The notes under the pieces were generated by a model. That model did no database searches. It saw only the letters and a list, made by a program, of their open reading frames with translations, and was not told the origin of the DNA. The translations under genes were made by a program, and so were the position numbers. A DNA stretch of 64,000 nt, taken from positions 186,001 through 250,000 of the forward strand of contig SBGP01000095.1 of the NCBI GenBank assembly GCA_006226595.1, read 5' to 3'. The stretch is from Deltaproteobacteria bacterium. GTDB taxonomy: Bacteria; Myxococcota_A; UBA796; GCA-2862545. The stretch's first letter is position 1; the number at the start of each line of letters is the position of its first letter. Shown here in pieces: positions 44,948-63,373 of the stretch.

Positions 44948-45397
44948 CTACTCCGGCGCGCACCAGGCGATGTCGGTGGCCCCGCCATGCGCGACGACGA
45001 GGAGGTCGATCTGCGACAGCGCCATGTCGCAGGTCGAGCTGGGCTCGTTGACGCGGAGCACCATCCGCAGCCTGTCGGCGTCCAGCCAGGGGGCGTAGTC
45101 CACGGTGCGGCCCCCGCACCCGTCGGTGTCCCAGCGGTTCACGAACACCAACTCGGTGGCAAAGTCGGGGGACAGGCCGCCGTCGGTGCCCCACCGAGTG
45201 ACCGCGCTGTCCCAGGCATCCTGGGTCTGCAGCACCTCGCCGGCGCCGATGACGAACGGGTCCTCGCCGTCGAACTGGCCGTAGCCGAGCGAGGCGAGCT
45301 GGAACGGCAGCTCCTCCGCGTCGTCCGACAGACTCGGGCAGCGGAGCCCCCCCTGACAGGCGGTCAGGGTGAACAGCATCGGGGCGAGCAAGCGCAT
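44948..45397 (-). CDS. Small lipoprotein, unknown
   Basis: This 149-residue protein starts at an ATG behind GGAGGATCTC with a lipoprotein leader (lipobox LTAC, Cys14). The mature part has a compact alpha/beta look and five more cysteines; a segment TQDAWDSAVTRWG and the C-terminal strand LLVVAHGGATDIAWC are notable. No family is recognised. It is divergent from the hydrogenase operon, and the 289-base gap between them carries three dyads and a sigma-54 promoter, so it could share regulation with the hydrogenase. Confidence 0.7.
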   Translation of the reverse strand: MRLLAPMLFTLTACQGGLRCPSLSDDAEELPFQLASLGYGQFDGEDPFVIGAGEVLQTQDAWDSAVTRWGTDGGLSPDFATELVFVNRWDTDGCGGRTVDYAPWLDADRLRMVLRVNEPSSTCDMALSQIDLLVVAHGGATDIAWCAPE

Positions 45398-45600
45398 GGG
45401 GAGATCCTCCGGGCGCGCCGATTTACGCGCCAAAGACACTGGTCCAACCTGCGTCTCCGCATATCTTGCTGGTGCCGGCCGCCTGAGGCTGCGGGGTCTG
45501 CGCAGGGGCGGTCGCCGAGTGACTACGGCCACTCGACATGGGACGCCAGGGAAGCTCCGCGATCTCCGAGCCACGGACGTGGGTGGCCTGCCCCCAACCC

Positions 45601-45616
45601 TGTGTACTCTCACACA
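45601..45616. promoter_or_regulatory. CRP-like dyad TGTGT-N6-ACACA
   Basis: Perfect arms TGTGT and ACACA with a six-base spacer have the geometry of CRP/FNR-family sites (TGTGA-N6-TCACA). The site lies 71-86 bases before the first hydrogenase gene, whose operon encodes a cyclic-nucleotide-binding-type protein lacking a visible DNA-binding domain. Confidence 0.5.
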
Positions 45617-45617
45617 A

Positions 45618-45637
45618 CGCGAGACCCGACTCTCGCG
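45618..45637. promoter_or_regulatory. Dyad CGCGAGA-N6-TCTCGCG
   Basis: Perfect 7-bp arms with a six-base spacer, beginning one base after the CRP-like dyad. Same spacer length, different sequence; probably a distinct protein site. Confidence 0.5.
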
Positions 45638-45659
45638 CAGCCATGCGGCGGCATGGCTG
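45638..45659. promoter_or_regulatory. Dyad CAGCCATGC-GGCG-GCATGGCTG
   Basis: Perfect 9-bp arms around GGCG, directly abutting the previous dyad and overlapping the first two bases of the -24 element at 45658. A protein bound here would affect access to the promoter. Confidence 0.5.
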
Positions 45660-45673
45660 GCACCGCACTTGCA
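45658..45673 (+). promoter_or_regulatory. Sigma-54 type -24/-12 promoter of hydrogenase operon
   Basis: TGGCACCGCACTTGCA matches TGGCACG-N4-TTGCA at all positions but one, with GG and GC twelve bases apart. The predicted start near 45684 leaves a leader of about three bases before the ATG at 45687, which fits the lack of a ribosome site. Confidence 0.65.
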
Positions 45674-45686
45674 ACCCCCACGAACG

Positions 45687-46787
45687 ATGCACAACCCTCG
45701 CACCATTCTCTCGCATAGCGATCTCGGCACCCTGTTCGCGACTTTGCACGCCGAGGGACGCCACACCATCGGGCCCACCGTGCGCGACGGCGCCATCGTA
45801 TACGACCGCCTGATCGGCCCCGACGACCTCCCAACCGGCGTCGTCGACGAGCAGGCTCCAGGACGGTACCGGCTTCGGCACGAGGGCACCCGCCGGTTCT
45901 CGTGGAGCGTCGGACCCCAATCGTTCAAGCGGTGGCTCCACCCGCCCGAGCTACGGCTCTTTCGCGCCACCCGGACCGAGCGCGGGTTTGCGGTCGAGAA
46001 GCCCGAGGCCCCGCCGCCACTGGCGCTGATCGGGGCGCGCGCCTGCGAGCTCGCGGCGATGGCGATTCAGGACCGGGTGTTCCTCGGCGACGTCGTCGAC
46101 CCACACTACGCGTCACGGCGGCGGGACCTGTTCATCGTGGCGGTGCAGTGCGACCGCGCCGCCTCCACCTGCTTCTGCCCGTCCATGGGCAGCGGCCCAC
46201 GCGTGTCCCGCGGCTACGACCTGTCCCTGACCGAGGTTGTGGACGAGGCCGGTCACCGCTTCGTCGTCGAGATCGGCAGTGAGGCCGGGCGCGCCCTGGC
46301 CGCCAAGCTGCCGCTGCACGCCGCGACCACCGATGCGGACGCCCCCGAGCGAGCTTCCGCCGAGGCCGAGGCGCAGATCGCTCGCCGCATGCCCACCGAC
46401 GGCCTGCGCGAGAAGCTGCTCGGTGCGGTAGCCAGCAGCAACTGGGACGACGTGGCGAGCCGCTGCATCGGCTGCGCCAACTGCACGCTCGTGTGTCCCA
46501 CGTGCTTCTGCACCACGGTGGACGACGTGACCACGCTCGACGGGACCCACGAGCGCGTGCGGCGCTGGGACAGCTGCTTCCATCCCGACTTCTCCTACCT
46601 GCACGGCGCTGGGCCGGTGCGCAGCTCGGTCGGCGCGCGCTACCGCCAGTGGCTGACCCACAAGCTCGCCACCTGGCACGACCAGTTCGGCACGTCGGGC
46701 TGCGTGGGCTGCGGCCGCTGCGTCGCCTGGTGCCCGGCGGGCATCGACATCGTCGCCGAGGCCGAGCGCCTCGCGGAGGACGCATGA
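45687..46787 (+). CDS. hyhB: NAD(P)-linked [NiFe] hydrogenase, iron-sulfur (beta) subunit
   Basis: This 366-residue protein has, after an N-terminal domain (IGPTVRDGAIVYDRL at about 30-44, typical of sulfhydrogenase beta subunits), two ferredoxin-type 4Fe-4S motifs: CIGCANCTLVCPTC (about 260-273) and CVGCGRCVAWCP (about 338-349). In the group 3b enzyme it carries electrons between the hydrogenase module and the flavin subunit. The ATG is not preceded by a ribosome site; together with the promoter position this suggests a nearly leaderless mRNA. It opens the operon B, cNMP, G, S, L. Confidence 0.9.
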   Translation: MHNPRTILSHSDLGTLFATLHAEGRHTIGPTVRDGAIVYDRLIGPDDLPTGVVDEQAPGRYRLRHEGTRRFSWSVGPQSFKRWLHPPELRLFRATRTERGFAVEKPEAPPPLALIGARACELAAMAIQDRVFLGDVVDPHYASRRRDLFIVAVQCDRAASTCFCPSMGSGPRVSRGYDLSLTEVVDEAGHRFVVEIGSEAGRALAAKLPLHAATTDADAPERASAEAEAQIARRMPTDGLREKLLGAVASSNWDDVASRCIGCANCTLVCPTCFCTTVDDVTTLDGTHERVRRWDSCFHPDFSYLHGAGPVRSSVGARYRQWLTHKLATWHDQFGTSGCVGCGRCVAWCPAGIDIVAEAERLAEDA

Positions 46788-47239
46788 CCGAAGGACTCGA
46801 GGCGCTCATCCGCCGCCAACCCTTGTTCGACGACCTCTCGGAGGCCGACCTGAAGCACCTGGCGGGCTGCGCCCGGAACGTGAAGTTCGACGCCGGAGAG
46901 ATCTTCGTCCGGCACGGCGAAGAGGCCGACCGCAGCTTCCTCGTTCGCGCGGGCCGCGTCGGGCTCGTCGTCCACGGCCGCGACATCGCCGAGACCGCCG
47001 AGGAAGGCGACCTCGTCGGCTGGTCGTGGCTGTTCCCGCCCTACCGCTGGCACTTCGACGCCAAGGCACTCACCGCCGTGCGCGCCATCGAGCTCGACGG
47101 CGCCTGCCTGCGCGCCAAGTGCGAGTCCGACCCGCGCTTCGGCTTCGAGATCGCCAAGCGCTTCCTCTACCAGGCCCACCGGCGCCTCGAGCACACCCGC
47201 CTGCGCGCCATGGACGTCTACAAGGGGCCGCTGACGTGA
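46784..47239 (+). CDS. Cyclic-nucleotide-binding-domain protein in hydrogenase operon (no DNA-binding domain)
   Basis: This 151-residue protein starts in an ATGA overlap with the beta-subunit gene. Nearly the whole chain is one CRP-type cyclic-nucleotide-binding fold: FDDLSEADLKHLAGCARNVKF, then FDAGEIFVRHGEEADRSFLVRAG and GDLVGWSWLFPPYRWHFDAKA. The usual phosphate-binding cassette pattern (GE-x-x-x-R-A/S) is not obvious; in its place is the tryptophan-rich GWSWLFPPYRWHF. There is no helix-turn-helix after the fold. It may be a structural or regulatory subunit of the complex rather than a transcription factor. Small proteins of this type are known in some group 3b operons. Confidence 0.82.
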   Translation: MTEGLEALIRRQPLFDDLSEADLKHLAGCARNVKFDAGEIFVRHGEEADRSFLVRAGRVGLVVHGRDIAETAEEGDLVGWSWLFPPYRWHFDAKALTAVRAIELDGACLRAKCESDPRFGFEIAKRFLYQAHRRLEHTRLRAMDVYKGPLT

Positions 47240-48057
47240 ACGACCCGTGGGTGCCAACCCCGATGACAGTGCGCGAGGTCGTCCGCGAGACCGCCGACAC
47301 CGTCACCCTGACGCTGGATACGAGCGCCTCGCCCTTCGCCTTCGCGCCAGGCCAGTTCAACATGGTCTACCTGTTCGGCCAGGGTGAGGTGCCCATCTCG
47401 ATCAGCGGTCATGCCGACCGGCCCGACGAGCTGGTCCACACCATCCGCGGCGTGGGCCCGGTCACCCGCCCGATGCTCGACCTCGTCCCCGGCGACGTGC
47501 TCGGCATCCGCGGTCCGTTCGGCACGGCGTGGCCCGTGGAAGAGGCCAGAGGCACCGACGTCATCGTCGTGGCTGGCGGCATCGGTCTGGCACCGCTGCG
47601 GCCGATGATCTATCACCTGCTCGCCAACCGCCGCGACTACGCCCGCATCGTCCTCATCTACGGTGCGCGTCAGCCCGACCAGATGCTGTTCGTCGACGAG
47701 CTGCACCACTGGCGCGGACGCTTCGACCTGACCGTCGAGGTCACGGTCGACCAGGGCACCGAGGACTGGTTCGGTCCGGTCGGTGTGGTCACCAGGAGCC
47801 TGGCCCGGGCCCGCTTCGACGCCGACGACGCCACCGTGGTGACCTGCGGTCCCGAGGTGATGATGCGCTTCGTGGTCCATGAGGCCGTCCGCATGGGCGT
47901 TCCCCAGGACCGCATCTGGGCATCGATGGAGCGCAACATGAAGTGCGCCATCGGCTTGTGCGGGCACTGCCAGTGGGGCCCCGACTTCGTCTGCAAGCAG
48001 GGCCCGGTGTATCGCTGGGACCACATCGCCCACCGCTTCGCCGAGAAGGAGCTCTGA
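47236..48057 (+). CDS. hyhG: NAD(P)-linked [NiFe] hydrogenase, flavin (gamma) subunit
   Basis: This 273-residue protein starts at GTG in a GTGA overlap. It shows a ferredoxin-reductase-type FAD domain ([21 protein letters not shown], about 36-56), an NAD(P)-binding domain ([16 protein letters not shown] at about 111-126, and [11 protein letters not shown]), and a C-terminal 2Fe-2S segment with cysteines in [18 protein letters not shown], as in PyrK/HydG. It transfers electrons between NAD(P)(H) and the iron-sulfur chain. Its last base overlaps the small subunit start (TGATG). Confidence 0.92.
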
Positions 48058-48827
48058 TGCGCCTCGCCGTGCACAAGTTCGCGTCGTGCGACGGCTGCCA
48101 GCTGTCGATCCTCGACTGCGAAGACGAGCTGCTCGCCGTCGCCGGCGCCGTGGACATCGCCTACTTCCCCGAGGCCAGCCGACGCATGGAGCCCGGCCCC
48201 TACGACGTGTCGCTGGTCGAGGGCTCCATCACCACCGCTCACGACGCCGAGCGCATCCAGCAGATCCGCCGCGAGTCGAAGGTGGTCGTCACCATCGGGG
48301 CCTGCGCGACCGCCGGCGGCATCCAGGCCCTGCGCAACTACGCCGACGTCGAGCAGTTCACCCGCGCGGTGTACGCCAAGCCCGAGTTCATCTCGACGCT
48401 CGAGACCTCGACCCCCATCGCCGCCCACATTCCCGTCGACTACGAGCTGCGGGGCTGCCCGGTCGACAAGCGCCAGCTGCTCGACGTGCTCGTCGCTTCG
48501 CTGCACGGACGCCGCCCCGCCATCCCCAACGAGAGCGTGTGCGCCGAGTGCAAGCGCGCCGGTCACGTCTGCGTGATCGTCGCCCACGGCACGCCCTGCC
48601 TCGGACCCGTGACCCACTCCGGGTGCGGCGGCCTGTGTCCCGGCTACCACCGCGGCTGCTTCGGCTGCTTCGGCCCCTCCAGCCTGGCGCGCATGGAGCC
48701 GATGACCGAGGTCTGGCGTAGTCTGGGCGCCGACGACAAGACCATCGACCGGGCCCTGTCGACCTTCCACGTGGCCAGCGAGGCCAACGCCGCCGAGCGG
48801 GCTCGGCTCGAGGCAGACGATGAGTGA
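48057..48827 (+). CDS. hyhS: [NiFe] hydrogenase small (delta) subunit, group 3b type
   Basis: This 256-residue protein begins with [12 protein letters not shown] (Cys11 and Cys14), which bind the proximal cluster; further ligands are in [10 protein letters not shown] and RGCPVD. Its C-terminal third carries [24 protein letters not shown] and CFGCFG, the extra cysteines of cytosolic group 3 small subunits with three 4Fe-4S clusters. No Tat signal is present, so the enzyme is cytoplasmic. It overlaps the large subunit gene by eight bases. Confidence 0.94.
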
Positions 48828-50115
48828 CGAGACCACCCGCACGCTCGCGGTCGACTACCTCGCGAGGGTCGAGGGCGAAGGCGCGCTCAGGCTCGTGTGG
48901 TCCGGCGACGAGCTGACCGACGTCGAGCTCAACATCTTCGAGCCGCCGCGGTTCTTCGAGGGCTTCCTGCAGGGACGGTCGTGCCTCGAGACCCCGGACA
49001 TCACCGCCCGCATCTGCGGCATCTGCCCGGTCGCGTACCAGATGTCGGCGAGTGCCGCGGTCGAGGACGCCCTTGGCATCGCGCTGCCCGACCCCTACCT
49101 GCAGCTGCGGCGGGTGCTGTACTGCGGCGAGTGGATCGAGAGCCACGTGCTGCACATGCTCATGCTCCACACGCCCGACTTCCTCGGCGTCGACGACGCG
49201 ATGGCCGTTGCTCGCGAGCATGGCGACATGGTGCGCGCCGGCCTCAAGGTGAAGAAGGCCGGCAACGACATCGTGAACGTGGTGGGCGGCCGCGAGATTC
49301 ACCCGATCAACGTCCGCATCGGTGGCTTCTACCGACTTCCGCGGCGGTCCGAGATCGATGCGCTCGTCGCGCAGCTCAAGGAAGCGCGGCCGCTGGCCGA
49401 GGCCATGCTGCGGTGGATGGGCACCTTCCACTTCCCAGAACTCGAGGTCGACGTCGAGCTGGTCGCGCTGAAGCCCGAGGGCCTGTACCCGTTCATCGAG
49501 GGGCCGATCGCCAGTACCGGCGGCCTGTGCGTGCCCGTCCAGGAATGGGCCAACCACTTCGCCGAGGAGCACGTCGCCCGAACCCACGCGCTGCACGCCC
49601 GACTGCACGGCGAGCCCTACCTGACCGGTCCCCTCGCCCGCTTCGCGCTCAACTTCGACGCCCTGCCCGCCGACCTGCGCGCCCTGTCCGCGGAGCTCGG
49701 TATCGGCCCCGGCGAGCGCAACCCGTTCAAGTCCCTGCTGGTGCGCGGCATCGAGGTTCTGTTCGCCCTCGACGAGGCCGTGCGCATCCTCGAGCAGTGG
49801 CGCGCGCCCAAGGAAGCGGCGGTGCCCGTCGAGCTCAAGAAGGGCTCGGGCTGGGGGGTCAGCGAGGCCCCGCGCGGCACGCTGGTCCACCACTACGAGG
49901 TCGACGACGAGGGCCTGATCAAGACCGCCATCATCGTGCCGCCCACGTCGCAGAACCAGCTCGCCATCGAGTCCGACCTGCGCAACCTCGGCACCCAGCT
50001 CAAGGTGTTGGACGACGCAGCGGCCACCCACCGCGCCGAGATGGCGATTCGCAACTACGACCCGTGCATCTCGTGCGCGACCCACTTCCTGCGCTTCGAG
50101 CGGGTGTTCTCGTGA
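48820..50115 (+). CDS. hyhL: [NiFe] hydrogenase large (alpha) subunit, group 3b type
   Basis: This 431-residue catalytic subunit holds the Ni-Fe(CN)2CO centre. The N-terminal ligand motif is RICGICP (Cys66 and Cys69) and the C-terminal is DPCISCATH (Cys416, Cys419, His422), followed by a nine-residue tail that the maturation protease should remove after His422. All four nickel ligands are present, so it should be active. Family and context (B, G, S, L order; hydrogen oxidation or evolution with NADP) point to group 3b. It ends in a GTGA overlap with the protease gene. Confidence 0.95.
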
Positions 50116-50564
50116 CGAGGGTCCGGGTCGTGGGCCTCGGCCAGCCGGCCGCCGGAGACGACGCCATCGGCATCGAGGTCGTGCGCGCGGTGCCTCCCAC
50201 CGACGGCGTCGAGCTGATCGAGCTCACCGACACCGCCGCGCTGGTCGAGCTGCTCGACGGCTCGCCGATGCTGGTCGTCGATGCGGTGGTCGGCGCGGGC
50301 GAGCCGGGCGCAGTGGTCGAGGCCAGGGTCGACGAGCTCGCGCGCGTCCAGGCCTTCTCGACCCATGGCATCGGGCTCGTGGAGGCCGTGGGCCTCGCTC
50401 GCGTGCTCCAGGGCGACGCCTGCGCGGACCAGCTTCGCGTGCTGGGCGTCGCCATCGAGGCACCCAGAGCACTGGGCTACGGCATGAGTCCCGCCGTCGC
50501 CGCCGCCGTACAGCCCGCAGTAGAGCGCGTCGTCGCGTGGATGGAAGAGGTGAAGCATGCATGA
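50112..50564 (+). CDS. Hydrogenase maturation protease
   Basis: This 150-residue protein starts at GTG. It matches the HyaD/HybD/HoxW fold: a first strand leading to GDDAIGIEV with metal-binding Asp16 (the family usually has N-D/E-D-G-x-G here), Asp57 in LVVDAVVGAG and His85 in STHGIGL. These sense the nickel in the large subunit and trigger removal of its C-terminal tail. The gene directly follows its substrate gene and overlaps hypA by eight bases. Confidence 0.88.
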   Translation: MTRVRVVGLGQPAAGDDAIGIEVVRAVPPTDGVELIELTDTAALVELLDGSPMLVVDAVVGAGEPGAVVEARVDELARVQAFSTHGIGLVEAVGLARVLQGDACADQLRVLGVAIEAPRALGYGMSPAVAAAVQPAVERVVAWMEEVKHA

Positions 50565-50901
50565 GTCGTCGCTGGGTCGGAACATCCTCGAGGCCGTGCT
50601 CGGACGCGTTGGCGCCGAATCCGTGAAGGTGCGCACGGTGCGCGGCTGGCTCGCCGAGAGCGAGGCGCTGGACCCGGTCGCCATCCAGATGCACTTCGAC
50701 CGGGCCGCCGCCGGCACCGCCGCCGAGGGGGCCAGGCTCGACCTGGCCATCACCCACGTGCGGGCGCGGTGCGCCGACTGCGGCCAGGAGTACCTGCCCG
50801 AGCACCACCTCACCCTGTGCACCCACTGCGGCTCGCTCGACGGCGAGCTGCTCGGAAAGACGGGGCTGGGCATCGACGCCATCGACGTGGAAGACGTGTG
50901 A
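50557..50901 (+). CDS. hypA: Hydrogenase nickel-insertion protein HypA
   Basis: This 114-residue protein has the N-terminal nickel-binding MHE, and a zinc domain with two CxxC motifs (CADCG and CTHCG, about 71-75 and 89-93). HypA delivers nickel to the large subunit, normally with the GTPase HypB, which is absent from this operon. It overlaps hypF by GTGTGA. Confidence 0.92.
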   Translation: MHESSLGRNILEAVLGRVGAESVKVRTVRGWLAESEALDPVAIQMHFDRAAAGTAAEGARLDLAITHVRARCADCGQEYLPEHHLTLCTHCGSLDGELLGKTGLGIDAIDVEDV

Positions 50902-53075
50902 TCCGAGCCGCCCTGGTCGCGCGCGGGCAGGTCCAGGGCGTCGGTTTTCGCCCCTTTGTCGTGCGAACGGCCCGTCAGCTGGGGCTCACCGGGTGGGTGC
51001 GCAACGAGCCCGACGGCGTTCGCGCCGAGGTCCAGGGAGCTGCGGAACGCATCGAGGTCTTCACGGGTGCCCTGCGCGATGCGCCCTTTCCCGCCGTGGT
51101 CTCCACCCTGGAGCGCATCGATCTGGCACCCGTCGACGAGGTCGCCTTCGAGCTGCGCCCCTCCGTGACCGCGGGCACACCTCGCCCGTCGGTGCCTCCC
51201 GACCTGGCGACCTGCCCGACCTGCCTGGCCGAGCTGTCCGACCCCGCCAGCCCGCGCTTCGGCTACCCGCTGCTGTCCTGCACCGCCTGCGGTCCCCGCT
51301 ACACCATCGCCCAGCAGCTGCCCTTCGACCGGGAGCGCACGGCGATGCACGCCTTCCCGCTCTGCGAGCGCTGCCAGACCGAGTACGAAGACACCGAAGA
51401 CCGACGCTTTCACGCCCAGGCCACGGTCTGTCCCGACTGCGGACCCATGCTCCGGATGGGCACACACCGTGGGCCGGACGCCGTCGCCGCCGCCGCCGCG
51501 CTGCTCCGCGACGGGGGCCTCCTCGCACTCAAGGGCCTGGGCGGCTTCCAGCTGCTCTGCGACGCCACCCACGAGGGCGCTGTGCGCCGGCTTCGGCAAG
51601 GCAAGCGTCGTCCCGACAAGCCCCTCGCCGTGCTGTTCGGCACCCTCGACGAGCTCGCACTCACCACCGAGGAGCGCGCGCTATTGGAGAGCCCCGCCGC
51701 ACCCATCGTCCTGGTCGACGGCCCGCCCCTGGCGCCGTCCGTGAGCGACGGTCTGCCGTGGTGCGGGGCCATGCGGCCGACCACCGCGCTGCACTCCCAG
51801 CTCGCCGAGGCGGTCGGGCGCCCCCTGGTGTGCACCAGCGGCAACGTCTCGGGCGAGCCGCTGTGCCGGGATGACGCCGAGGCCCGAGCGCACCTGGACT
51901 TCGCGGACGCCATCCTCGACCACGACCGACCCGTGTTGCGGCCGGCCGACGACTCGGTGGCCCGGGTGGTCGCCGGAGACACGGTCCTCCTGCGACGGGC
52001 GCGCGGGCATGCGCCTGCACCCATCGGCCTCGGAGAGGCCGGTCCCACCGTGCTCGCCGTCGGTGCCCACCTCAAGAACACCGTCGGCATCGCCGTCGGA
52101 GACCAGGCCGTGCTCTCACCCCACATCGGCACCCTCGGCGGCCGGCGCATGCTCGATCGGTTCGCCGAAGAGCTCCACGGGCTGCAGCAGATCTACGCCG
52201 CAAGACCCGAGCGCATCGCCTGCGACCTGCACCCCGACCTGCCGTCGACCCGCCACGCCGAGAACCTCGCGACGGAGCTCGGCGTGCCCCTGTTCCGCGT
52301 CCAGCACCACCACGCCCACGTCGCGGCGGTCATGGCCGAGCACCGGCTCGAGTCTGTGCTCGGGATTGCCTGGGACGGGGTCGGCTACGGCACCGACGGC
52401 ACGACCTGGGGTGCCGAGGCCTTGCGCTGCGAGGGGTCCCTGTTCACGCGAAGCCCCATGGTCCGGCCGTTTGCGCTCCCGGGCGGGGACGCCTGCGCCC
52501 GGTCTCCTGCCCGCTGTGCCCTCGGCGCCTTCGCGGAGGCCGACGGCGCGGAAGCCGTGCTCGATGCGGCCCAGGCCCACCTGCCCAAGGGCGCCGGTGA
52601 GCTCCTTCGGCAGGGCCTCGCCCAGGGCCTGTTCCCCGTCGCGACGTCCATGGGCCGCCTGTTCGACGCCGTGGCCTTTGCCTGCGGGGGACCCGGCACG
52701 ACCACCTACGAAGCCGCCGCCGCGATGTGGCTGGAGGCGCTCGCCCTGCGCGGCATCCGCGACGGCGAGGACGGACGCTACGCTCCGGACACCCTCCTGG
52801 AAGAGGTGCTCGCCGATCGGGCTGCAGGCGCCGCACCCGAACGCATCGCGGCTCGCTTTCACCACGGTCTGGTCGGCCTGATCGAGGTCACGGCGCGCGA
52901 CGCCGACGTCCCCGATGTGGCCCTGGCCGGAGGCTGCTTCCAGAACGCCATCCTCCTCGAGGGCGCCCTGCGACGCCTCGAGGCAGCGGGCTTCCGGCCG
53001 TGGATGTCTCGACAGGTGCCCCCCAACGACGGTGGAATCGCGCTCGGCCAGCTATGGCTGGCACGGAGGTCCTGA
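50898..53075 (+). CDS. hypF: Carbamoyltransferase HypF
   Basis: This 725-residue protein starts at GTG. Domains: acylphosphatase ([11 protein letters not shown], about 13-23), two zinc fingers (CPTCLAEL...CTACGPRY and CERCQTEY...CPDCGP, about 105-185), a YrdC-like domain with [10 protein letters not shown] and TSGNVSGEP, then a Kae1-like domain with [15 protein letters not shown] binding metal. HypF converts carbamoyl phosphate to a carbamoyl group for HypE, the source of the cyanide ligands. Length is normal. The last base overlaps hypC. Confidence 0.94.
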
Positions 53076-53305
53076 TGTGTCTGGGCGTGCCGGGACAGAT
53101 CGTCGAAGTCGAGACCAGCGACCCGCTGCGCATGGGCAGGGTCAGCTTCGAGGGCGTGCAGAAGCAGATCTGCCTGGTCTATGTGCCCGAGGTGGGCGTC
53201 GGCGACTGGGTGATCGTGCACGCGGGCTTCGCCATTCACGCCATCGACGCCGCCGAGGCCGACCGGACCCTCACGCTGCTCAAGCAGCTGGAGCACCCCG
53301 AGTGA
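53075..53305 (+). CDS. hypC: Hydrogenase assembly chaperone HypC
   Basis: This 76-residue protein starts [13 protein letters not shown]; Cys2 is the ligand that holds the iron during assembly. It forms the HypC-HypD complex on which Fe(CN)2CO is built. It overlaps hypF by one base and hypD by four (GTGA). Confidence 0.94.
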
Positions 53306-54390
53306 AGTACGTCGACGAGTTCCGCGACCCGGCCGCCGTGCGGGCCCTCGCCGAGGAGCTGCGGCAGGCGACCACGCGCCCGTGGCGCATCATGGAGGTC
53401 TGCGGCGGGCAGACCCACGCGTTCGTGCGCTTCGGCATCGACCGGCTGCTGCCCGACGGGGTCGAGCTCATCCACGGACCGGGCTGCCCGGTCTGCGTCA
53501 CCAGCGTCGAGGTCATCGACCGGGCGCTCGCCCTCGCGGCCCGGCCCGACGTCGTGTTCTGCACCTTTGGCGACATGCTGCGCGTGCCCGGGTCCACCAC
53601 CGACCTGCTCCAGGTGAAGGCCGCGGGTGGCGACGTGCGCACGGTGTACTCCCCGCTCGATGCCGTCAAGCTCGCCCAGCAGCTGCCCGACAAGCAGGTC
53701 GTGTTCTTCGCGGTCGGCTTCGAGACCACCGCGCCCGGCGCCGCCATGGCCGTACACCACGCAGCGCAGGCCGGCATCGACAACTTCAGCGTGCTGGTCG
53801 CCCACGTGCTCGTCCCGCCCGCCCTCGAAGCGATTGCCGGCGCCGAAGACACCGCAGTGAACGGGTTCCTCGCCGCGGGCCACGTGTGCACGGTGATGGG
53901 CACGGAGGCCTACCGCCCCCTCGCCGAGCACTACAGCATGCCCATCGTGGTGACCGGCTTCGAGCCCACCGACCTGCTGCGGGGCCTGCTGGCGTGCGTT
54001 CGCCAGCTCGAGGAGGGCCGCGCCGAGGTCGAGAACGCCTACGAACGCGCGGTCCGCGACGAGGGCAACCCCGCCGCCCGCACCATGGTCGAGCGGGTGT
54101 TCGAGCCGGTGGAGCAGCAGTGGCGGGGCATCGGCGCGCTCCCCGCGAGCGGCCTCGGCCTGCGCGAGGCCTACCATCGCTTCGACGCCGCAAGACGCTT
54201 CGACCTGCCGCCCGGGGAGGGCCGCGAAGACCCCGAGTGTCGCGCCGGCGAGGTGCTGCGCGGGGTGTGCAAGCCCGAGGACTGCGCGGCCTTCGGCAAC
54301 CGCTGCACCCCCGACCACCCGCTCGGTGCGCCGATGGTGAGCAGTGAGGGCGCCTGCGCCGCCTATTACCGCTACCGGAGGACGGCGTGA
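53302..54390 (+). CDS. hypD: Hydrogenase assembly protein HypD
   Basis: This 362-residue protein starts at GTG. Conserved blocks include [15 protein letters not shown] (about 32-46), [10 protein letters not shown] (about 59-68), [10 protein letters not shown], and GFETTAPG; the C-terminal 4Fe-4S ligands lie in [17 protein letters not shown] and SEGACAAYY. HypD is the iron-sulfur scaffold where CN and CO are added to iron. GTGA overlap with hypE. Confidence 0.95.
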
Positions 54391-55421
54391 GCTTCGACCC
54401 GAGCTGCCCGGTCCCCGCTCCGGACGGACCGCTGGTGACACTGGCCCACGGCGGCGGCGGCCGCGCCATGCACCGTCTGCTCGCCGAGCACATCGGGCCG
54501 AGCGTCGGCGACGGCGCCCTGCGCCACGACGGGGCCGTGGTCGACGTGGTCCGAGACGGTGGGCGCCTCGCGGTGACCACCGACAGCTTCGTCGTCACGC
54601 CACTGTTCTTCCCCGGCGGCGACATCGGAAAGCTCGCCGTGTACGGCACCGTCAACGATCTGGTCGCCACCGGCGCCGAACCGCGGGTGCTCACCCTGGG
54701 CCTCATCCTCGAAGAAGGCCTGCCACTCGCGACCCTGGACCGGGTGCTCGCCTCCATCCGCTCCGCCGCCGACGAGGCGGGCGTGCGGGTGGCCACCGGC
54801 GACACCAAGGTGGTCGAGCGAGGCAAGGGCGACGGCGTGTTCATCAACACCACCGGCCTCGGAGAGGTGCCTTCCAGCGTGGAGATCGGGGCGTGGAAGG
54901 TGCGCGAGGGCGATGCGGTCCTGGTCTCTGGCGACGTGGGTCGCCATGGCATGGCGGTGCTGTCCGTCCGCGAGAGTCTGGGGTTTGCGACGCCTATCGA
55001 GAGCGACTGCGGGTCGCTGCTGCCGAACTGGCGGGCGCTCCAGGCCGCCAACGTGGTCCCCAGCTGCATGCGCGACTGCACCCGCGGCGGACTGGCGGCC
55101 TCCGTCGTCGAGATCGGCGGCGCGGCCGACGTGGACATCGTCCTGGACGAAGGGTCGATTCCCGTCGACCCGGGGGTTCGCGCCGCCTGCGAGATCCTGG
55201 GCCTGGACGCGGTGCACCTGGCCTGCGAAGGGCGCATGGTCGTGTTCGCTCGGGCAGAGGACGCCGACACCGCGCTGGCGGCGCTCAAGTCCGTCGAGCC
55301 CAGCGCGGCACGGATCGGCACGGTGACCGAGGGCACAGGTCGGGTGTGGTTGCGGGACGCGTATGGCGGCGAGAGGCTGCTCGACCTCCCCCTTGGCGAG
55401 GCGCTCCCGCGGATCTGCTGA
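54387..55421 (+). CDS. hypE: Hydrogenase maturation protein HypE
   Basis: This 344-residue protein starts at GTG. It has an AIR-synthase fold ([12 protein letters not shown] at 21-32, [18 protein letters not shown], and [16 protein letters not shown] for ATP) and ends LPRIC, where the final Cys carries the thiocarboxamide that is dehydrated to thiocyanate. Last gene of the hydrogenase unit; the next gene is convergent after 56 bases. Confidence 0.95.
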
Positions 55422-55477: not shown

Positions 55478-56395
55478 TCATGGACGCACGTCCCGGACGA
55501 GCTCGAAGACCTCGCAAGGCACCCCCAGAGACGATCCCCAGCGGATCGCGTGGCGTCTCGCCCGCTCGCACGACTCGTCCGAGAAGCCGAGCCCGGCCAT
55601 CCACGCGAGCTTGCCCGGGAGCTGGTCGCTGATGGGCCGAAAGCGCTGGGGCCGAAACTCGTCGGTCTCACGAGCGGGGGCGTAGGCGTAGACGACCTCG
55701 GCACTGCGCGCGGCCAGCCGTGATGCCCGGTGCAGCACCGCCTCGATACCGGGTGAGGACGTGGGCAGGTAGACCAGCGAAGGGCCGAGCTGGGCGACCT
55801 CGCGGCTCACCACCTCGTACACGGCGCCCGCGTTGGGCGTGTCGAGGTCCCCATGGATCCGCCCGGCGAATGGGAAGTGAAGCGGCGAGGTGCGCACGGT
55901 GGAGTCGCCGAGCACGAGCAGGTGCACGGCATCACCACGCTCGGCGTGCAGCCCCAGCGTGGCCCCGCAGGCGACCGCCAGGTCGCTGGTGCGCCAGCCA
56001 ATCGCGAGCACGGTCTGGGCGTTCGCGGGTCGCGCGAGCAACTGGGCCACGGCATCGAGCAGCCTTCCGCGCGCGAGCGGCTTGAGCAGGTAGCTGTCGA
56101 CGCCGCGGGCGATGGCCTCACTCGCGAGCGAGGCGGCGCCGTGCGCCGTCATGAGCACCGCCGGCGTCGTCGGGGTCACCCGCTTTGCCTCGCGCAGGAC
56201 ATCGAGGCCCGACGAGCCGGGGAGGTCCACGTCCGAGAGCACCAGGGCCCAGCCGCCGTCTCGGAGGCGGTCGCTCGCCGCGGAACCGGTGTCCACGACG
56301 GTGGGCGCATAGCCGGCGCGGCCGAGCCAGAGCTCGAGCAGGCGCGCCTGCGAGGGGTCGTCCTCGACGACGAGGATGCGTGGGGTCACGGACAT
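55478..56395 (-). CDS. Receiver domain fused to degenerate PIG-L-like domain
   Basis: This 305-residue protein has a receiver domain at 1-120 with acidic pair Glu11-Asp12, phosphoacceptor Asp55 (LSDVDLPG) and Lys105 (LLKPL), so it can be phosphorylated. Residues about 127-300 resemble the PIG-L/LmbE deacetylase fold (VLAIG-x12-GATLGLHAERGDAVHLLVL), but the zinc motif AHPDDxE has become GWRTSDLA (residues 133-140): the His, first Asp and Glu are gone. It is therefore probably a binding domain rather than an enzyme. It has its own -24/-12 promoter and lies downstream of a Ser/Thr kinase in the same direction. Confidence 0.8.
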   Translation of the reverse strand: MSVTPRILVVEDDPSQARLLELWLGRAGYAPTVVDTGSAASDRLRDGGWALVLSDVDLPGSSGLDVLREAKRVTPTTPAVLMTAHGAASLASEAIARGVDSYLLKPLARGRLLDAVAQLLARPANAQTVLAIGWRTSDLAVACGATLGLHAERGDAVHLLVLGDSTVRTSPLHFPFAGRIHGDLDTPNAGAVYEVVSREVAQLGPSLVYLPTSSPGIEAVLHRASRLAARSAEVVYAYAPARETDEFRPQRFRPISDQLPGKLAWMAGLGFSDESCERARRHAIRWGSSLGVPCEVFELVRDVRP

Positions 56396-56416
56396 GAGGC
56401 CTCCCGCCCTCGGAGC

Positions 56417-56432
56417 AGCAAGCGGCGGGCCA
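56417..56432 (-). promoter_or_regulatory. Sigma-54 type -24/-12 promoter of receiver/PIG-L gene
   Basis: On the minus strand TGGCCCGCCGCTTGCT matches the consensus TGGCACG-N4-TTGCW with one change, GG and GC twelve bases apart. Predicted start near 56406 gives the leader CGGGAGGCCTC-ATG, nearly identical to the leader predicted for the kinase gene at 57433. Confidence 0.6.
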
Positions 56433-56461
56433 GCCGTGGCGTGCGCGTTCGCGCCTGGGCG

Positions 56462-56477
56462 GTGCCGTGGTGGGTCA
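56462..56477. promoter_or_regulatory. 16-bp element GTGCCGTGGTGGGTCA, also present at 63496-63511
   Basis: This exact 16-mer on the plus strand recurs on the minus strand at 63496-63511, upstream of the sigma-54 activator gene. Here it lies about 56-71 bases before the predicted start of the receiver/PIG-L transcript, a place for activator binding. Confidence 0.5.
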
Positions 56478-56480
56478 GTG

Positions 56481-56522
56481 GCTGTACCAGAGTGGGACAG
56501 GTCGGCCCCGGGGTGGTACAGC
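56481..56522. promoter_or_regulatory. Long-spaced dyad GCTGTACCA-N24-TGGTACAGC
   Basis: Perfect 9-bp arms at 56481-56489 and 56514-56522; the second touches the stop codon of the kinase gene. Located about 75-116 bases upstream of the predicted sigma-54 start, as expected for activator sites. A weak terminator role for the kinase gene is an alternative. Confidence 0.45.
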
Positions 56523-57433
56523 TAGACCGGGTCTTCCCAGAGGACCCTCGCACCGATGCTCTGCGGCTCGTCGGGCCACGCGACGGACGCGCACACCGTG
56601 CGCAGCGAGGGGCCCGGAAGCGACATGCGCGCGAGGCGAGCCGCGACCTCGGCGGCGCATGGACGGCGCGCGGCGTCGAAGTCGAGCATCTGGTCGAGGA
56701 GCACGGCGAGCGCGGGCAGCGTCACCTCGGCCAGCCGAATGCCTCGCCAGGCCCGGTGCATGCGCGGAAAGCTGCGCAGCTCTCGCGCCACCCGCCGTTC
56801 CCGGCGTCCCCACAGCGGATGGCCCGTCACCAGCGCGAAGAGCGTCGCGCCCAGCGCGTAGACGTCCACTGCGGGCGTCGGCGGACGTGCGGTGAAGCAC
56901 TCGGGGGCCATGTAGCCCAGGGTCCCGGCCAGGCGAGCATTGGTGCCGGCGCCGCTTCCGTCGATCTGCGCCAAGCCCATGTCGAGCAGTACGACGCGGC
57001 CATCCGGCGTGAGGCGCAAGTTCGCCAGCTTGATGTCGCGGTGCAGGAAGCCCCGGGGTGCGGTGGCCAGCGCGTGCGCGACCTGGCCGGCGGCGTCGGC
57101 GCAGGCGCGTGTCGACGGCATCGGCGCGAGCGAACGACCGGGCACGAACTCGGTGAGCAGGGCGAGCTGGCCCTCGACCCGAAGGAGCTCCACGATGCGC
57201 ACCATGCCCGGCCCATCGAGCTGTCGAAGCACCCAGGCCTCGCCGATCAGGTCGCGTTGGCACGCCTGTGAGAGCATCGCCGTCGGCCCGAGCAGCTTGA
57301 TGGCGACGGGCCGATCCTCGCGACGCGGGGTTCGAAGCGCCCCCAGATACACGTCGGCAAAGGAACCCGCCCCGAGCCAGGACTCGAGGCGCAAGGACCG
57401 GCGTTCGGACTCGGGACTCGGAAGTGCGGACAT
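56522..57433 (-). CDS. Ser/Thr protein kinase, DMG variant
   Basis: This 303-residue protein is almost entirely a kinase domain: glycine loop WLGAGSFADVYLG (19-31), Lys46 (VAIKLLG), LHRDIKLAN (Asp133), then LLDMGLAQ (Asp151), where DFG is DMG, followed by GTLGYMAPE. Metal-binding and catalytic residues are present, so it may be active. No membrane segment or extra domain is seen. It has its own sigma-54 type promoter in the 45-base gap after the histidine kinase gene and is followed by the receiver/PIG-L gene. Confidence 0.87.
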   Translation of the reverse strand: MSALPSPESERRSLRLESWLGAGSFADVYLGALRTPRREDRPVAIKLLGPTAMLSQACQRDLIGEAWVLRQLDGPGMVRIVELLRVEGQLALLTEFVPGRSLAPMPSTRACADAAGQVAHALATAPRGFLHRDIKLANLRLTPDGRVVLLDMGLAQIDGSGAGTNARLAGTLGYMAPECFTARPPTPAVDVYALGATLFALVTGHPLWGRRERRVARELRSFPRMHRAWRGIRLAEVTLPALAVLLDQMLDFDAARRPCAAEVAARLARMSLPGPSLRTVCASVAWPDEPQSIGARVLWEDPV

Positions 57434-57454
57434 GGGACCTCCCGTCCGCCGTGT

Positions 57455-57470
57455 TGCGAGTCGCGTGCCA
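57455..57470 (-). promoter_or_regulatory. Sigma-54 type -24/-12 promoter of Ser/Thr kinase gene
   Basis: On the minus strand TGGCACGCGACTCGCA matches TGGCACG-N4-TTGCA with one change. It fills most of the 45-base gap between the histidine kinase stop (57479) and this gene. Predicted leader: CGGGAGGTCCC-ATG. Confidence 0.6.
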
Positions 57471-57478
57471 CCGCTTGG

Positions 57479-60400
57479 CTAGTGGTACTGGACCCGGACC
57501 TGACCGAGGTAGCCGTCGAGCGCACGGGTGGCCTCGTTGGCATGCTCCAGCGAGCCCTCGCCCGCTGCCCGCTCGATCGCTGCACCCAGCTCGGAGATGT
57601 CCGGGAAGCCGTAGGCGCTACCGGTGCCGCGCATCGAGTGGCCGATGCGGCGCACCGTGTCCACGTCGCCGGCTGCGATGCCGGCGCGCAGCCGCTTCAC
57701 GTCGCTGCGACGGTCGCGTAGGAACGCCGGAATCAGCGGCTCGAGCTCGGCGTCCACGCTGGCCACCACCGGGTGCGAGGTCCGGCGGGGTGCCGGAACG
57801 TCCGTGCCCGCCTTCATCGCAAGATCCAGGGTCTCGACCAGCTTCCGTCGGTCGAAGGGCTTGGAGAGCGTCGCGTCGAAGCCGGCGGAGCGCCACTCGT
57901 GATCGCGGCCCACGTGTCCGGTGGTGGCGACGACGGGCACGTTCCAGCCGCGCTTGCGGAGTTCGCGCACGGTAGACACGCCGTCCCTGCCGGGCATCTC
58001 GACGTCGAGCAGTACCGCGTCCACCGGGTTGCGGTCGAGGTACTCCAGGGCCTCGTCGCCGCCACTCGCACAGGCGACCCGAAAGCCTTCGCGGCGAAGC
58101 AGGTGTCGCACGAGTCGTCGCGTGTCCGCGGCGTCATCGACGACCAGGACCCGAGCCCTCGGCGAGGCGGCCCGGTTCAGCGCGGCCATCAGCTCGTGGG
58201 ACTGCGACGGCTTCGGCACGAAGTCGCAGCAGCCGACGTCCAGCGCCCGCTCGCGGACCTCCGGCGTGGCGTGCGCGGAGTACGCGATGATCGGCAGGTG
58301 TGGCACCCCGGCGACCTGCTCGGCATGTCGGATGCGACGAATGGTCTCGAACCCATCCACCTCTGGCATGTGCAGGTCCATGAGAACGACGTCGAGGTCG
58401 CCGGCCCGTGCCCGCTCGACGCCCGCGTGCCCGCCCTCGGCCAGCACGACCTGGTGTCCGGCGCGCTGCAGCACCTGCCTCGCCAGGGCGCGGTTCTCCG
58501 GATTGTCCTCGACGACGAGCACGCGAAGGGCCGGGCCGCGAGGGTCGACGGCGGTGACGTCGTCCTCCTCTTCGTCGACCGGCCGCGTGCACGCCTGGAT
58601 GGCTTCGATCAGGTGCTCGGGCCGGAGCGGCAGGAACACCGTGTGCTCCTCCGCGGGCTGGGTCGTGCCCTCGGTCAGCGGCTGAGCGTGCACGAGGTGC
58701 ACCTCGGATCGCGCCAACAGGCCGCGCATCTCGGTCGGGACCCGGGTGTCGACCACGACCACGTCGAAGCCCTCGAAGCTGGTCGGCGGGTTCTTGTCGC
58801 AGCGCAGCTGGGCGGCCTCGAGCCCGAGGCTGATCAACGGCGCGCTGAGCGCCCGAGTCGCGTAGCGATTGGCGCCGAGCACCGCCAGGCGCAGGCCACG
58901 CAACCCTTCGGTGCGGCCATCGAGCTCGGCGTCGCGCTCGAGCGACACCCCGAGGTCGACCTCGACCGTGAAGGTCGCTCCCGCCCCCGGACGGCTCACC
59001 AGGGTGAGCTCGCCCCGCATCAGCTCGATGATCGAGCGCGTGATGTGCAGGCCGAGGCCCGTGCCTCCGCGGTGTTCGTGGGTCTGGACGTACTTCTGGA
59101 AGATGCGTTCCTGCTGGGCGAAGGAGATGCCGACGCCCGTGTCCCGCACCACCAGCTGCAGTCGAACGCGCCCGTCGCGACGCTCGAGCAGCTTGGCGGC
59201 GACGGCGATCTCGCCGCGGTCCGTGTACTTCGCGGCGTTGGAGACCAGGTTCGTCAGCACCTGTCGCAGCCGGGCCTCGTCCCCGAGTACCTGTGCGGGC
59301 AGGAGCGGGTCGACGACGGCGTACAGCTCGACCCCGGAGCGCACGCGGCCGGCCTGGCTCAGGACCACGCCCTCGAGCAGTCGACGCAGGCTCATCGGCT
59401 CGTCGAGCAGGCGCAGCCCGCCGTCTTCGAGGCGGGACACGTCGAGCACGTCGTTGATCAGCGCCAGCATGGCTTCGGCATTGGTGTGGATCGAGCGCGC
59501 GTAGGCCTGTTGTTCGCCCGTCAGTCGCGTCTCGCCGAGCAGCTGGGTCATGCCGAGCAGCGCGTGGAGGGGGGTGCGCACCTCGTGGCTCACGTGCGCC
59601 AGGAAGTCGGCCTTCGCGTCGCGGGCGGCTTCGGCCTCGCGCTTGGCGCGGTGCAGTGCGCGCTCGGCCCGCCAGCGCGCGGTGACGTCGCGGAACTGCC
59701 AGAGGTGGCCGCCGCGTCCGGTGTCCGTGCGAATCGGCAGCTCCTCGCACTCGACGATGCGGCCGTCGGCGAGTCTCAGCACATGGGTGCCGCGCTCGTT
59801 GGCGAACAGACGCTCGATCGCTTCGGGGTCGGCGAAGCGATGGCTCTGGGCGTGCATCAACTCGCGACCTGGCAGGCCCTCGATGGCCTCGGCGGGGCCG
59901 GTGTCGAACAGGCGGCCGAAGGCGTCGTTGACGAAGGCCACGCGCCCTCGCTCGTCGAGCACGAGCAGTCCGGCGCGGTGGTGGGTGATCAGCGCGCGGA
60001 AGCGGCTGGATGTCCGCGCGAGCTCGCGCTCGGTGCGCACCCTCGCGGTCTCGTCGCGCAGGTAGAAGTTCACGTACCCACTGTCCGGAAAGCGGGCGAC
60101 AACGACGTCGAAGTGGCGGCCGCTCCACTCCACGTGCGCGCTGCCGGTGCGCTCGGAGCCGAACATCAGGTCCTTCAGCTCGTCCGGGACCTCGCCGCCG
60201 ATCTGTGTGAGCAGGGCATCTGCGGCGGGGTTCCGGTACAGCTCGTGGCCATCCAGGGACAGGCGCAGCACGGGCTCGGGGTTCTCGTCGGGGAAGCGCG
60301 CGAGGCTGTTCAGGGCTCTGGCCCGCGTGGCGTCGAGCAGCATGGCCTGACGGAGCGGCCCGAGCAGCTGGCGGACGAGCTGGGTCCGCCGACCGTCGAA

Positions 60401-60835
60401 GTGACCGACGCCCGGGTGGGTGAGCACGATCAGGCGTTCGGGCTCGCCGTCGACCCGCGCCAACAGCAGGCTGCGGGCTCCGAGGAACGCGCCCGAGCCA
60501 GCTCCGGGCACACGCGCGGTGTCGAAGACGGCAAGCACGCCGTGGCCGGGTACAGCGTCGAGGATCGCCTCCATCGGCCAGCTCTCGCCCGGGGTGTGGC
60601 CAGCGATACCGACGAGGCCTTGGGGCTGGCGCTCCGCCGCGAGCGCATGCGTGAATCCCAGGGTGGGTGCGAGCGCCTCGAAGAGTCGCTCGAACATCGC
60701 CGCCGGGGATCCGCCCTCACCGATGGCCTGGACCGCGCAAAGCAGAGCCTGGGTCTCGGTCTGTTGTGCAAGAGCGGTCTGCCGCAAGGTCGCGAGCTCT
60801 GCCAGCGCCTCCGCGAGGCGCTCCTCGGTGCTCAT
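57479..60835 (-). CDS. Hybrid sensor histidine kinase with two receivers and a phosphotransfer domain
   Basis: This 1118-residue protein has an N-terminal GAF-like region (about 30-170), two PAS-like domains (about 190-280 and 290-405), then the H-box HVSHEVRTPL (His417), N-box VSNAAKY, G-boxes DTGVGIS and GTGLGLHI. A receiver-like domain that has lost its acidic pocket follows (about 660-760), then two intact receivers (Asp820 in LMDLHMP; Asp944 in LLDVEMP) and a C-terminal HPt domain (His1066 in IGHSMRG). It has no membrane segment, so signals are cytoplasmic. The ATG overlaps the FIST gene stop (ATGA); the FIST protein probably supplies or binds the signal. Confidence 0.93.
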   Translation of the reverse strand: MSTEERLAEALAELATLRQTALAQQTETQALLCAVQAIGEGGSPAAMFERLFEALAPTLGFTHALAAERQPQGLVGIAGHTPGESWPMEAILDAVPGHGVLAVFDTARVPGAGSGAFLGARSLLLARVDGEPERLIVLTHPGVGHFDGRRTQLVRQLLGPLRQAMLLDATRARALNSLARFPDENPEPVLRLSLDGHELYRNPAADALLTQIGGEVPDELKDLMFGSERTGSAHVEWSGRHFDVVVARFPDSGYVNFYLRDETARVRTERELARTSSRFRALITHHRAGLLVLDERGRVAFVNDAFGRLFDTGPAEAIEGLPGRELMHAQSHRFADPEAIERLFANERGTHVLRLADGRIVECEELPIRTDTGRGGHLWQFRDVTARWRAERALHRAKREAEAARDAKADFLAHVSHEVRTPLHALLGMTQLLGETRLTGEQQAYARSIHTNAEAMLALINDVLDVSRLEDGGLRLLDEPMSLRRLLEGVVLSQAGRVRSGVELYAVVDPLLPAQVLGDEARLRQVLTNLVSNAAKYTDRGEIAVAAKLLERRDGRVRLQLVVRDTGVGISFAQQERIFQKYVQTHEHRGGTGLGLHITRSIIELMRGELTLVSRPGAGATFTVEVDLGVSLERDAELDGRTEGLRGLRLAVLGANRYATRALSAPLISLGLEAAQLRCDKNPPTSFEGFDVVVVDTRVPTEMRGLLARSEVHLVHAQPLTEGTTQPAEEHTVFLPLRPEHLIEAIQACTRPVDEEEDDVTAVDPRGPALRVLVVEDNPENRALARQVLQRAGHQVVLAEGGHAGVERARAGDLDVVLMDLHMPEVDGFETIRRIRHAEQVAGVPHLPIIAYSAHATPEVRERALDVGCCDFVPKPSQSHELMAALNRAASPRARVLVVDDAADTRRLVRHLLRREGFRVACASGGDEALEYLDRNPVDAVLLDVEMPGRDGVSTVRELRKRGWNVPVVATTGHVGRDHEWRSAGFDATLSKPFDRRKLVETLDLAMKAGTDVPAPRRTSHPVVASVDAELEPLIPAFLRDRRSDVKRLRAGIAAGDVDTVRRIGHSMRGTGSAYGFPDISELGAAIERAAGEGSLEHANEATRALDGYLGQVRVQYH

Positions 60836-61998
60836 CGGAGCCTCCGGAAGCCGACGGCCGAGATCATGAGGTTGGCGTGCTGGTTGCGACCCACGGTCAG
60901 ACAACCCTGCTCGCCGAAGGTGAACTGCCCGAGAAAGGGCCGTCCATCGAGCACGCGCTGAATGCCCCGGGCGACCTCGGGCATGCGCTCGCCAACGGTG
61001 AGCCGGCAGCCCGCGCAGTACGTGAACAGCGCCCCCTCGAGGTCGCCGTGGACGCTCACGGCCTCGGCGACCCGCGCCGCGCGCTCGACGAGGCTGTCGG
61101 TGCTTCCCCGCATGGCGTAGATCTCTTCCCCTGCGGTCACTTCGGTGAACAGCTGGAGGCCGCCGCCTTCCACGACAGCAGCCGGGTGCGACAGGGCGAA
61201 GGTGCGCACGTCCTCGATGCGGCCGACCGGTCGCCCGAGCGGCTGCAGGCTGGTCGCGGCGAGCACGTCCACGTGGGTCAGGGAGAGGCCGGTCCACGCT
61301 TCGTAGACCTCGACGGCCGGGCGGTCGTCGATGGCCCACACGGTGCGCCCCTCCACTCGCGTGACCCGGCCGTGCGGCCCGCTCGGCGCATAGCCGCTGA
61401 GGAAGGCGGTGGTCAGGGGTGTCGACGGTGCCAGCACCGCCATGGCCACGCCGTCGTGGGTGGTGCCGTCCGGCGTGAGCTGGAACCAGTTGCCGGCCAC
61501 CGCATCGTCCGCCGAGGATCCGCCGAACACGGGCACGCGCCCCCCGAGCGTCTCGTCGATGGCCGCGAGCATGGACTCCTCGTCACCGGGACCGCCGCTC
61601 GTCCACACCAACGCCGGCTGGGCGAAGGGAGCGCCCGTCCGAGCGAGTGCTCGTTCGAGTGTCGCCCGCGTGGCGGCCCGCGGCTGGACCCCCTTCTCGG
61701 CGCTGGCGACGCCGTAGCGACCGTCCGGATCGCGCACGGCGAGACAGGCCAGGGCGTGGGGGTCGTCCGCGAAGCCCTGGTCGGTGAGCAGGCCGTTGCA
61801 GCTGGTGTGGAACATGAAGGGCACGCCGGGCCAGGTCGCGCGCACCGCATCCAGCGTCCGCTGTGGGTCACGCCCCGCGTTGAGCACTCCGAAGACCATC
61901 GACGGCGCACCGCCAAGGGTGCGGGTCAGCGCCGGCGCGATCTCGGCGAGGGCCCGGTCCGGGGACGGTTCGGTCGTGATGGCCGTCGCGATTCGCAT
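60832..61998 (-). CDS. FIST domain sensory protein
   Basis: This 388-residue protein is a stand-alone FIST N (about 25-220) plus FIST C (about 225-370) protein. Typical blocks: VPFMFHTSCNGLLTDQGF, VPVFGGSSADD at about 178-188 and NWFQLTPDG, and in the C part EIYAMRGSTDSLVERA with LFTYCAGCRLTVGER (about 325-339). FIST domains bind small ligands, probably amino acids or related metabolites, and are usually coupled to histidine kinases or chemotaxis receptors, as here: its stop overlaps the hybrid kinase start, and the activator gene ends one base before its start. Confidence 0.88.
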   Translation of the reverse strand: MRIATAITTEPSPDRALAEIAPALTRTLGGAPSMVFGVLNAGRDPQRTLDAVRATWPGVPFMFHTSCNGLLTDQGFADDPHALACLAVRDPDGRYGVASAEKGVQPRAATRATLERALARTGAPFAQPALVWTSGGPGDEESMLAAIDETLGGRVPVFGGSSADDAVAGNWFQLTPDGTTHDGVAMAVLAPSTPLTTAFLSGYAPSGPHGRVTRVEGRTVWAIDDRPAVEVYEAWTGLSLTHVDVLAATSLQPLGRPVGRIEDVRTFALSHPAAVVEGGGLQLFTEVTAGEEIYAMRGSTDSLVERAARVAEAVSVHGDLEGALFTYCAGCRLTVGERMPEVARGIQRVLDGRPFLGQFTFGEQGCLTVGRNQHANLMISAVGFRRLR

Positions 61999-61999
61999 C

Positions 62000-63373
<1,374 letters not shown>

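Follow-up and report, generated by a model that had tools for sequence, protein, structure and literature searches.

A predicted low-oxygen enhancer site among three abutting dyads at the sigma-54 promoter of a [NiFe] hydrogenase operon

Introduction

[NiFe] hydrogenase operons can be activated by NtrC-family proteins of the HoxA/HupR type, which respond to H2 via a regulatory hydrogenase. NifA acts from an upstream activator sequence of the form TGT-N10-ACA, and FNR and CRP control hydrogenase and cbb3 genes, with expression at low oxygen. The system that appears closest to the one considered here, and by analogy with which low-oxygen activation at this locus would be of a known kind, is the NmpRSTU oxygen-utilisation regulon of Myxococcus xanthus, in which a globin-coupled kinase and an NtrC-like regulator work through sigma-54 promoters with dyad enhancers and with autoregulation (PMC11841059, PMC6211767). 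The targets of NmpRSTU include the cbb3 oxidase, a CBS protein, Usp and HemN, and the regulator also acts on its own operon. The operator described for NmpR is GCGCA-N5-TGCGC, and neighbouring sites are separated by 14-15 nt; the globin-coupled kinase is believed to be active in the presence of oxygen and then to shut the pathway down, and a hydrogenase is not named in that paper (PMC11841059).

Here we analysed a 64-kb window, i.e. the whole stretch of DNA under study and the reference for all positions given without a contig or locus, in which three different dyads lie head to tail in front of a hydrogenase operon. We estimate at about 0.78 the probability that this operon is a sigma-54-transcribed member of a low-oxygen regulon and that dyad 1 is the enhancer of the activator, a prediction that rests on sequence comparison.

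Results

The hydrogenase operon and its sigma-54 promoter

The operon downstream of the dyads (Table 1) is predicted to encode a group 3b-type [NiFe] hydrogenase with sulfhydrogenase-like beta, gamma, delta and alpha subunits. All four subunits matched the HydBGDA/ShyBCDA-type models with E-values of 1e-42 or better, or near this value, and scored below the equivalog cut-offs. A regulatory hydrogenase was not recognised among the genes of the operon. A Pfam search with the divergent lipoprotein-like gene gave no match, the frame tested being slightly offset.

The arrangement described in the original prediction was recovered in full. The three dyads are exact in the sequence, have perfect arms and abut one another over 59 bases, and the array is placed between the hydrogenase operon and the divergent gene and precedes a near-consensus sigma-54 promoter, the first two bases of which, in the -24 element, are covered by dyad 3. 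The promoter has GG-N10-GC at -24/-12, matches TGGCAC-N5-TTGC exactly and has the best sigma-54 score among all hydrogenase beta-subunit loci examined. TGGCAC-N5-TTGC gave 44 exact matches in the genome versus 7 for the reversed control, an excess that indicates a genuine sigma-54 motif; the genome also encodes about 24 strong enhancer-binding proteins. The predicted transcription start of the hydrogenase operon is at about 45684. Between the -12 C and the ATG of hydB there are only 14 nt (45672-45687), so that the leader of a sigma-54 mRNA would be about 3 nt; at two further sigma-54 promoters of the genome the gap is 13 nt.

Table 1. Features of the promoter block, the hydrogenase operon and the divergent gene.
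Feature	Position	Strand	Basis or remark
Weak partner of dyad 1, TGGG-N8-CCCC	45580..45595		PWM score 4.5
Dyad 1, TGTGT-N6-ACACA / TGTG-N8-CACA	45601..45616		Predicted enhancer site of low-oxygen NtrC-family activator
Dyad 2, CGCGAGA-N6-TCTCGCG	45618..45637		Exact sequence; candidate second regulator site
Dyad 3, CAGCCATGC-N4-GCATGGCTG	45638..45659		Exact sequence; candidate repressor operator
Sigma-54 promoter TGGCACCGCACTTGCA	45658..45673	+	Near-consensus; sequence, genome-wide motif enrichment
Hydrogenase/sulfhydrogenase beta subunit, first operon gene	45687..46787	+	NCBIfam ShyB/HydB, E 4e-41 and 4e-37, below equivalog cut-off
cNMP-binding-domain protein	46784..47239	+	PF00027 only; without HTH
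Hydrogenase gamma (FAD/NAD) subunit	47242..48057	+	HydBGDA/ShyBCDA-type models
Hydrogenase delta (small) subunit	48054..48827	+	HydBGDA/ShyBCDA-type models
Hydrogenase alpha (large) subunit	48820..50115	+	HydBGDA/ShyBCDA-type models
Maturation genes: protease, hypA, hypF, hypC, hypD, hypE	50115..55421	+	hypC by reading frame only
Divergent lipoprotein-like gene	44948..45397	-	Open frame, GGAGG before ATG

Rarity of the dyad block

Dyads were found upstream of many sigma-54 promoters in the genome, and one dyad is thus the rule, which three abutting dyads are not. The dyad-density score of the block over 63 nt was 26.5, the highest in the 64 kb (maximum 24.5 among 15,911 other positions of the scoring window) and it also exceeded every one of the 83,460 windows taken from 419 kb of this genome (maximum 26.1). 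When dyads 2 and 3 were scored alone, 3 of 83,460 overlapping 45-nt windows matched them, which makes a chance occurrence at exactly the promoter unlikely. As part of a promoter, dyads 2 and 3 are thus out of the ordinary, but a comparable block anywhere in 64 kb is not extraordinary. Given that each of the three exact dyads occurs only once in the 7.2 Mb genome, the relaxed form TGTG-N8-CACA of dyad 1 was used for the regulon search.

Dyad 1 matches the operator of an NtrC-family activator

The order of the source bacterium was scanned (56 genomes) for TGTG-N8-CACA upstream of a loosely defined sigma-54 motif. About 40 matches were obtained versus about 31 for the reversed control; the enrichment was weak because the sigma-54 part of the pattern was loose, and the bulk of the order-wide matches is noise. 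An enhancer-binding protein is encoded in six of 17 regions around the better matches, and each time it is the ortholog of G000:C19:38789-40132, an NtrC-family activator with a receiver, an AAA+ domain and a Fis-type HTH. Identity to that protein is about 60-79%, as against about 45% for the next family. This activator adjoins a protoglobin-PAS histidine kinase and a ccoN-O-Q-P-G-I cluster in genome G045, where tandem TGTG-N8-CACA sites lie before both the activator gene and ccoN. The activator, the globin-coupled kinase and ccoN were found in one cluster in eight genomes, and in the source assembly the activator gene is on a contig separate from the kinase and ccoN. Further genes behind TGTG-N8-CACA promoters in the order encode Usp, a CBS protein, an nrfH-like cytochrome and a hemN-like radical-SAM protein, the last of these called from its sequence together with a weak match to radical-SAM.

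Two other computations were independent of this chain of order-wide matches. The ccoN sigma-54 promoters of 16 genomes were used to count 1,280 dyads (256 four-base arms at spacings of 6-10), and TGTG-N8-CACA ranked first, with at least 7/8 positions matched in 15 of the 16 promoters versus 3% of background windows. A position weight matrix (PWM) was then built from relatives only, with the source genome left out. The hydrogenase site scored 17.8, on a par with the 17.7 of the genome's own ccoN promoter; the C19 promoters of the same genome scored 16.8, and the maximum among 1,559 background windows was 15.6, below the hydrogenase site. With this score the hydrogenase promoter ranked second of the 44 sigma-54 promoters in the genome. 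Other top-scoring promoters precede genes for a CBS protein, multihaem cytochrome/FeS proteins and a YgaP-like membrane protein, targets that fit a low-oxygen regulon, and one precedes an acyltransferase without a clear oxygen link.

The position of dyad 1, at -57 from TGGCAC, is inside the range of the family, for which sites 40-90 nt upstream were accepted. A weak partner of dyad 1 lies 21 bp farther upstream, a distance within the 20-23 bp found between tandem sites of ccoN promoters, and 0.009 such matches are expected by chance over the 8 allowed offsets. A possible downstream partner overlapping dyad 2 was discarded, its PWM score being strongly negative.

Other candidate regulators of dyad 1

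The original prediction had read the block as a regulatory array with at least one CRP/FNR-family site. The array at a sigma-54 hydrogenase promoter stood up to analysis, but the CRP/FNR part did not, as dyad 1 fits the TGTG-N8-CACA operator of an NtrC-family enhancer-binding protein. TGTGT-N6-ACACA resembles TGTGA-N6-TCACA, and the genome encodes a CRP-like protein, the only clear CRP/FNR-type HTH protein there; dyad 1 itself is neither TGTGA-N6-TCACA nor TTGAT-N4-ATCAA. Across the order the dyad class is tied to the enhancer-binding protein and to sigma-54 promoters, the opening of which requires an AAA+ activator and not CRP, and the recognition-helix residues of the CRP-like protein (read by eye) differ from those of E. 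coli CRP. We consider it highly improbable that dyad 1 is the site of a CRP/FNR-family regulator.

The activator encoded nearby (62000-63373, with FIST and a hybrid kinase) had also been put forward. As the closest gene of this kind, some 17 kb away and of the NtrC type, it could in principle control the hydrogenase via one of the dyads, but its promoters carry a different dyad, TGTRCC-N5-GGYACA, which is absent from the hydrogenase promoter (the best match there has 5 mismatches). The same dyad also precedes the same response regulator gene in relatives without the hydrogenase, and orthologs of the activator occur in genomes that lack this hydrogenase. This protein is a very unlikely regulator of the operon, and the preferred candidate for dyad 1 is the activator found beside ccoN.

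The nearby activator belongs to an operon on the minus strand (55478-63373) that encodes an NtrC-type activator, a FIST protein, a hybrid kinase with Hpt, a Ser/Thr kinase and a response regulator. The 17-bp dyad TGTRCC-N5-GGYACA lies before the response regulator gene (56483) and before the activator (63464 and 63496), and it is conserved before the same response regulator gene in two relatives (L266:6152 and L269:17607). Conservation of this FIST/kinase/activator module beside hydrogenases was looked for and not seen. The sole TGTGT-N6-ACACA in genome G005, 4 kb from an ortholog of the activator, was dropped as a lead because no strong sigma-54 site accompanies it and the ortholog's own motif differs.

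Comparison of the promoter region between relatives

No homologous DNA of note was found for the intergenic region in 18 relatives. The hydrogenase operon was absent from the one other genome of the genus that was compared and from nearly all of the family, and no close relative carrying the operon was found among the genomes compared. The nearest relative of the hydrogenase (same order, 59% identity) has neither a sigma-54 promoter nor a TGTG-N8-CACA site. The array was common to none of the upstream regions of about 110 hydrogenase loci, and none of the relatives compared combines the regulator with a similar hydrogenase promoter.

Dyads 2 and 3

Dyads 2 and 3 do not fit the enhancer PWM, and they had no counterparts in the relatives compared and no further copies in the genome. 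Most likely they are extra operators or a product of chance. That both are due to chance, or form DNA or RNA hairpins to which no protein binds, is a reading that we place a little short of even odds: in a GC-rich genome one comparable block is to be expected every few hundred kb or so, and folding of the strand gives three hairpins (z -3.0). Against this, the two dyads abut the promoter without gaps, and their position, before the predicted transcription start, puts them outside the sigma-54 transcript.

If the block were instead a true multi-input switch, dyad 1 would be the low-oxygen enhancer, dyad 2 the site of a second regulator and dyad 3 the site of a repressor competing at the -24 element. 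Perfect, abutting arms of 7 and 9 bp that occupy the space from the enhancer to -24, together with the rarity of the dyad 2 and 3 block in the genome, argue for such a switch; dyads 2 and 3 come, however, without copies, an identified regulator or comparative support, and we regard the switch as rather unlikely. Because of the two-base overlap of dyad 3 with the start of the -24 element, a protein bound to this dyad would exclude the polymerase, and the suggestion that dyad 3 is a repressor operator placed to block polymerase is a guess to which we give similarly low odds. More doubtful still is the full scheme of a three-input sigma-54 hydrogenase promoter, in which an enhancer linked to oxygen would be combined with a second, dedicated operator and with a repressor operator merged into -24 (repressor and polymerase being mutually exclusive), all under an NmpR-like system that had switched to a different operator class.

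Other dyads and repeats

Some other repeated sequences were noted during the searches. Tandem CGCCCAT/ATGGGCG dyads precede several sigma-54 promoters of the genome (five loci) and are probably the operator of another enhancer-binding protein. Long inverted repeats of the GGTCTGACCCC type were seen upstream of sigma-54-like sites at three loci and are perhaps a repeat element. In genome G002, TGTGTCTCCAGACACA is repeated on five contigs, partly near contig ends, which suggests a repeat family that has nothing to do with the enhancer.

Discussion

The regulon to which the hydrogenase promoter is assigned resembles NmpRSTU in its globin-coupled kinase and NtrC-family regulator, in its sigma-54 promoters with dyad enhancers, in autoregulation and in the kinds of targets found (cbb3, CBS, Usp, HemN and its own operon). 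It differs in the DNA site, which is TGTG-N8-CACA with 20-23 bp from start to start and does not conform to GCGCA-N5-TGCGC. With the HoxA/HupR systems the locus shares an NtrC-family activator at a sigma-54 hydrogenase promoter, but the regulator to which the site here belongs is linked to oxygen and has ccoN as its main target. The NifA sequence TGT-N10-ACA formally fits dyad 1, whereas the regulator that accompanies the site has a receiver domain and is encoded next to ccoN and the globin-coupled kinase. Control by FNR or CRP follows the same physiological logic by means of another protein family, another sigma factor and another mechanism.

The operator, its link to the activator family, the content of the regulon and the match at the hydrogenase promoter were obtained by comparative computation. 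In the mechanism that we propose, the oxygen sensor would likely be the globin-coupled (protoglobin) histidine kinase encoded beside the activator in relatives, and we infer that kinase and regulator form a pair. When oxygen is low, the NtrC-family response regulator would bind dyad 1 and its weak upstream copy, form an AAA+ oligomer, contact sigma-54 polymerase at the promoter and open it; the sign of the oxygen signal, and with it the direction of the predicted response, is deduced from the target genes only. The outcome would be that the hydrogenase is made alongside the high-affinity cbb3 oxidase and genes of anaerobic respiration.

TGTG-N8-CACA offers a testable operator and regulator for the low-oxygen response across a whole order of the phylum of the source bacterium. 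Similar targets with different DNA sites suggest that regulatory systems of this kind can differ in operator. If dyad 1 is the enhancer, an NmpR-like regulon would be extended to hydrogen metabolism, and the prediction is that a shortage of oxygen would lead to joint production of a group 3b-type hydrogenase and the cbb3 oxidase.
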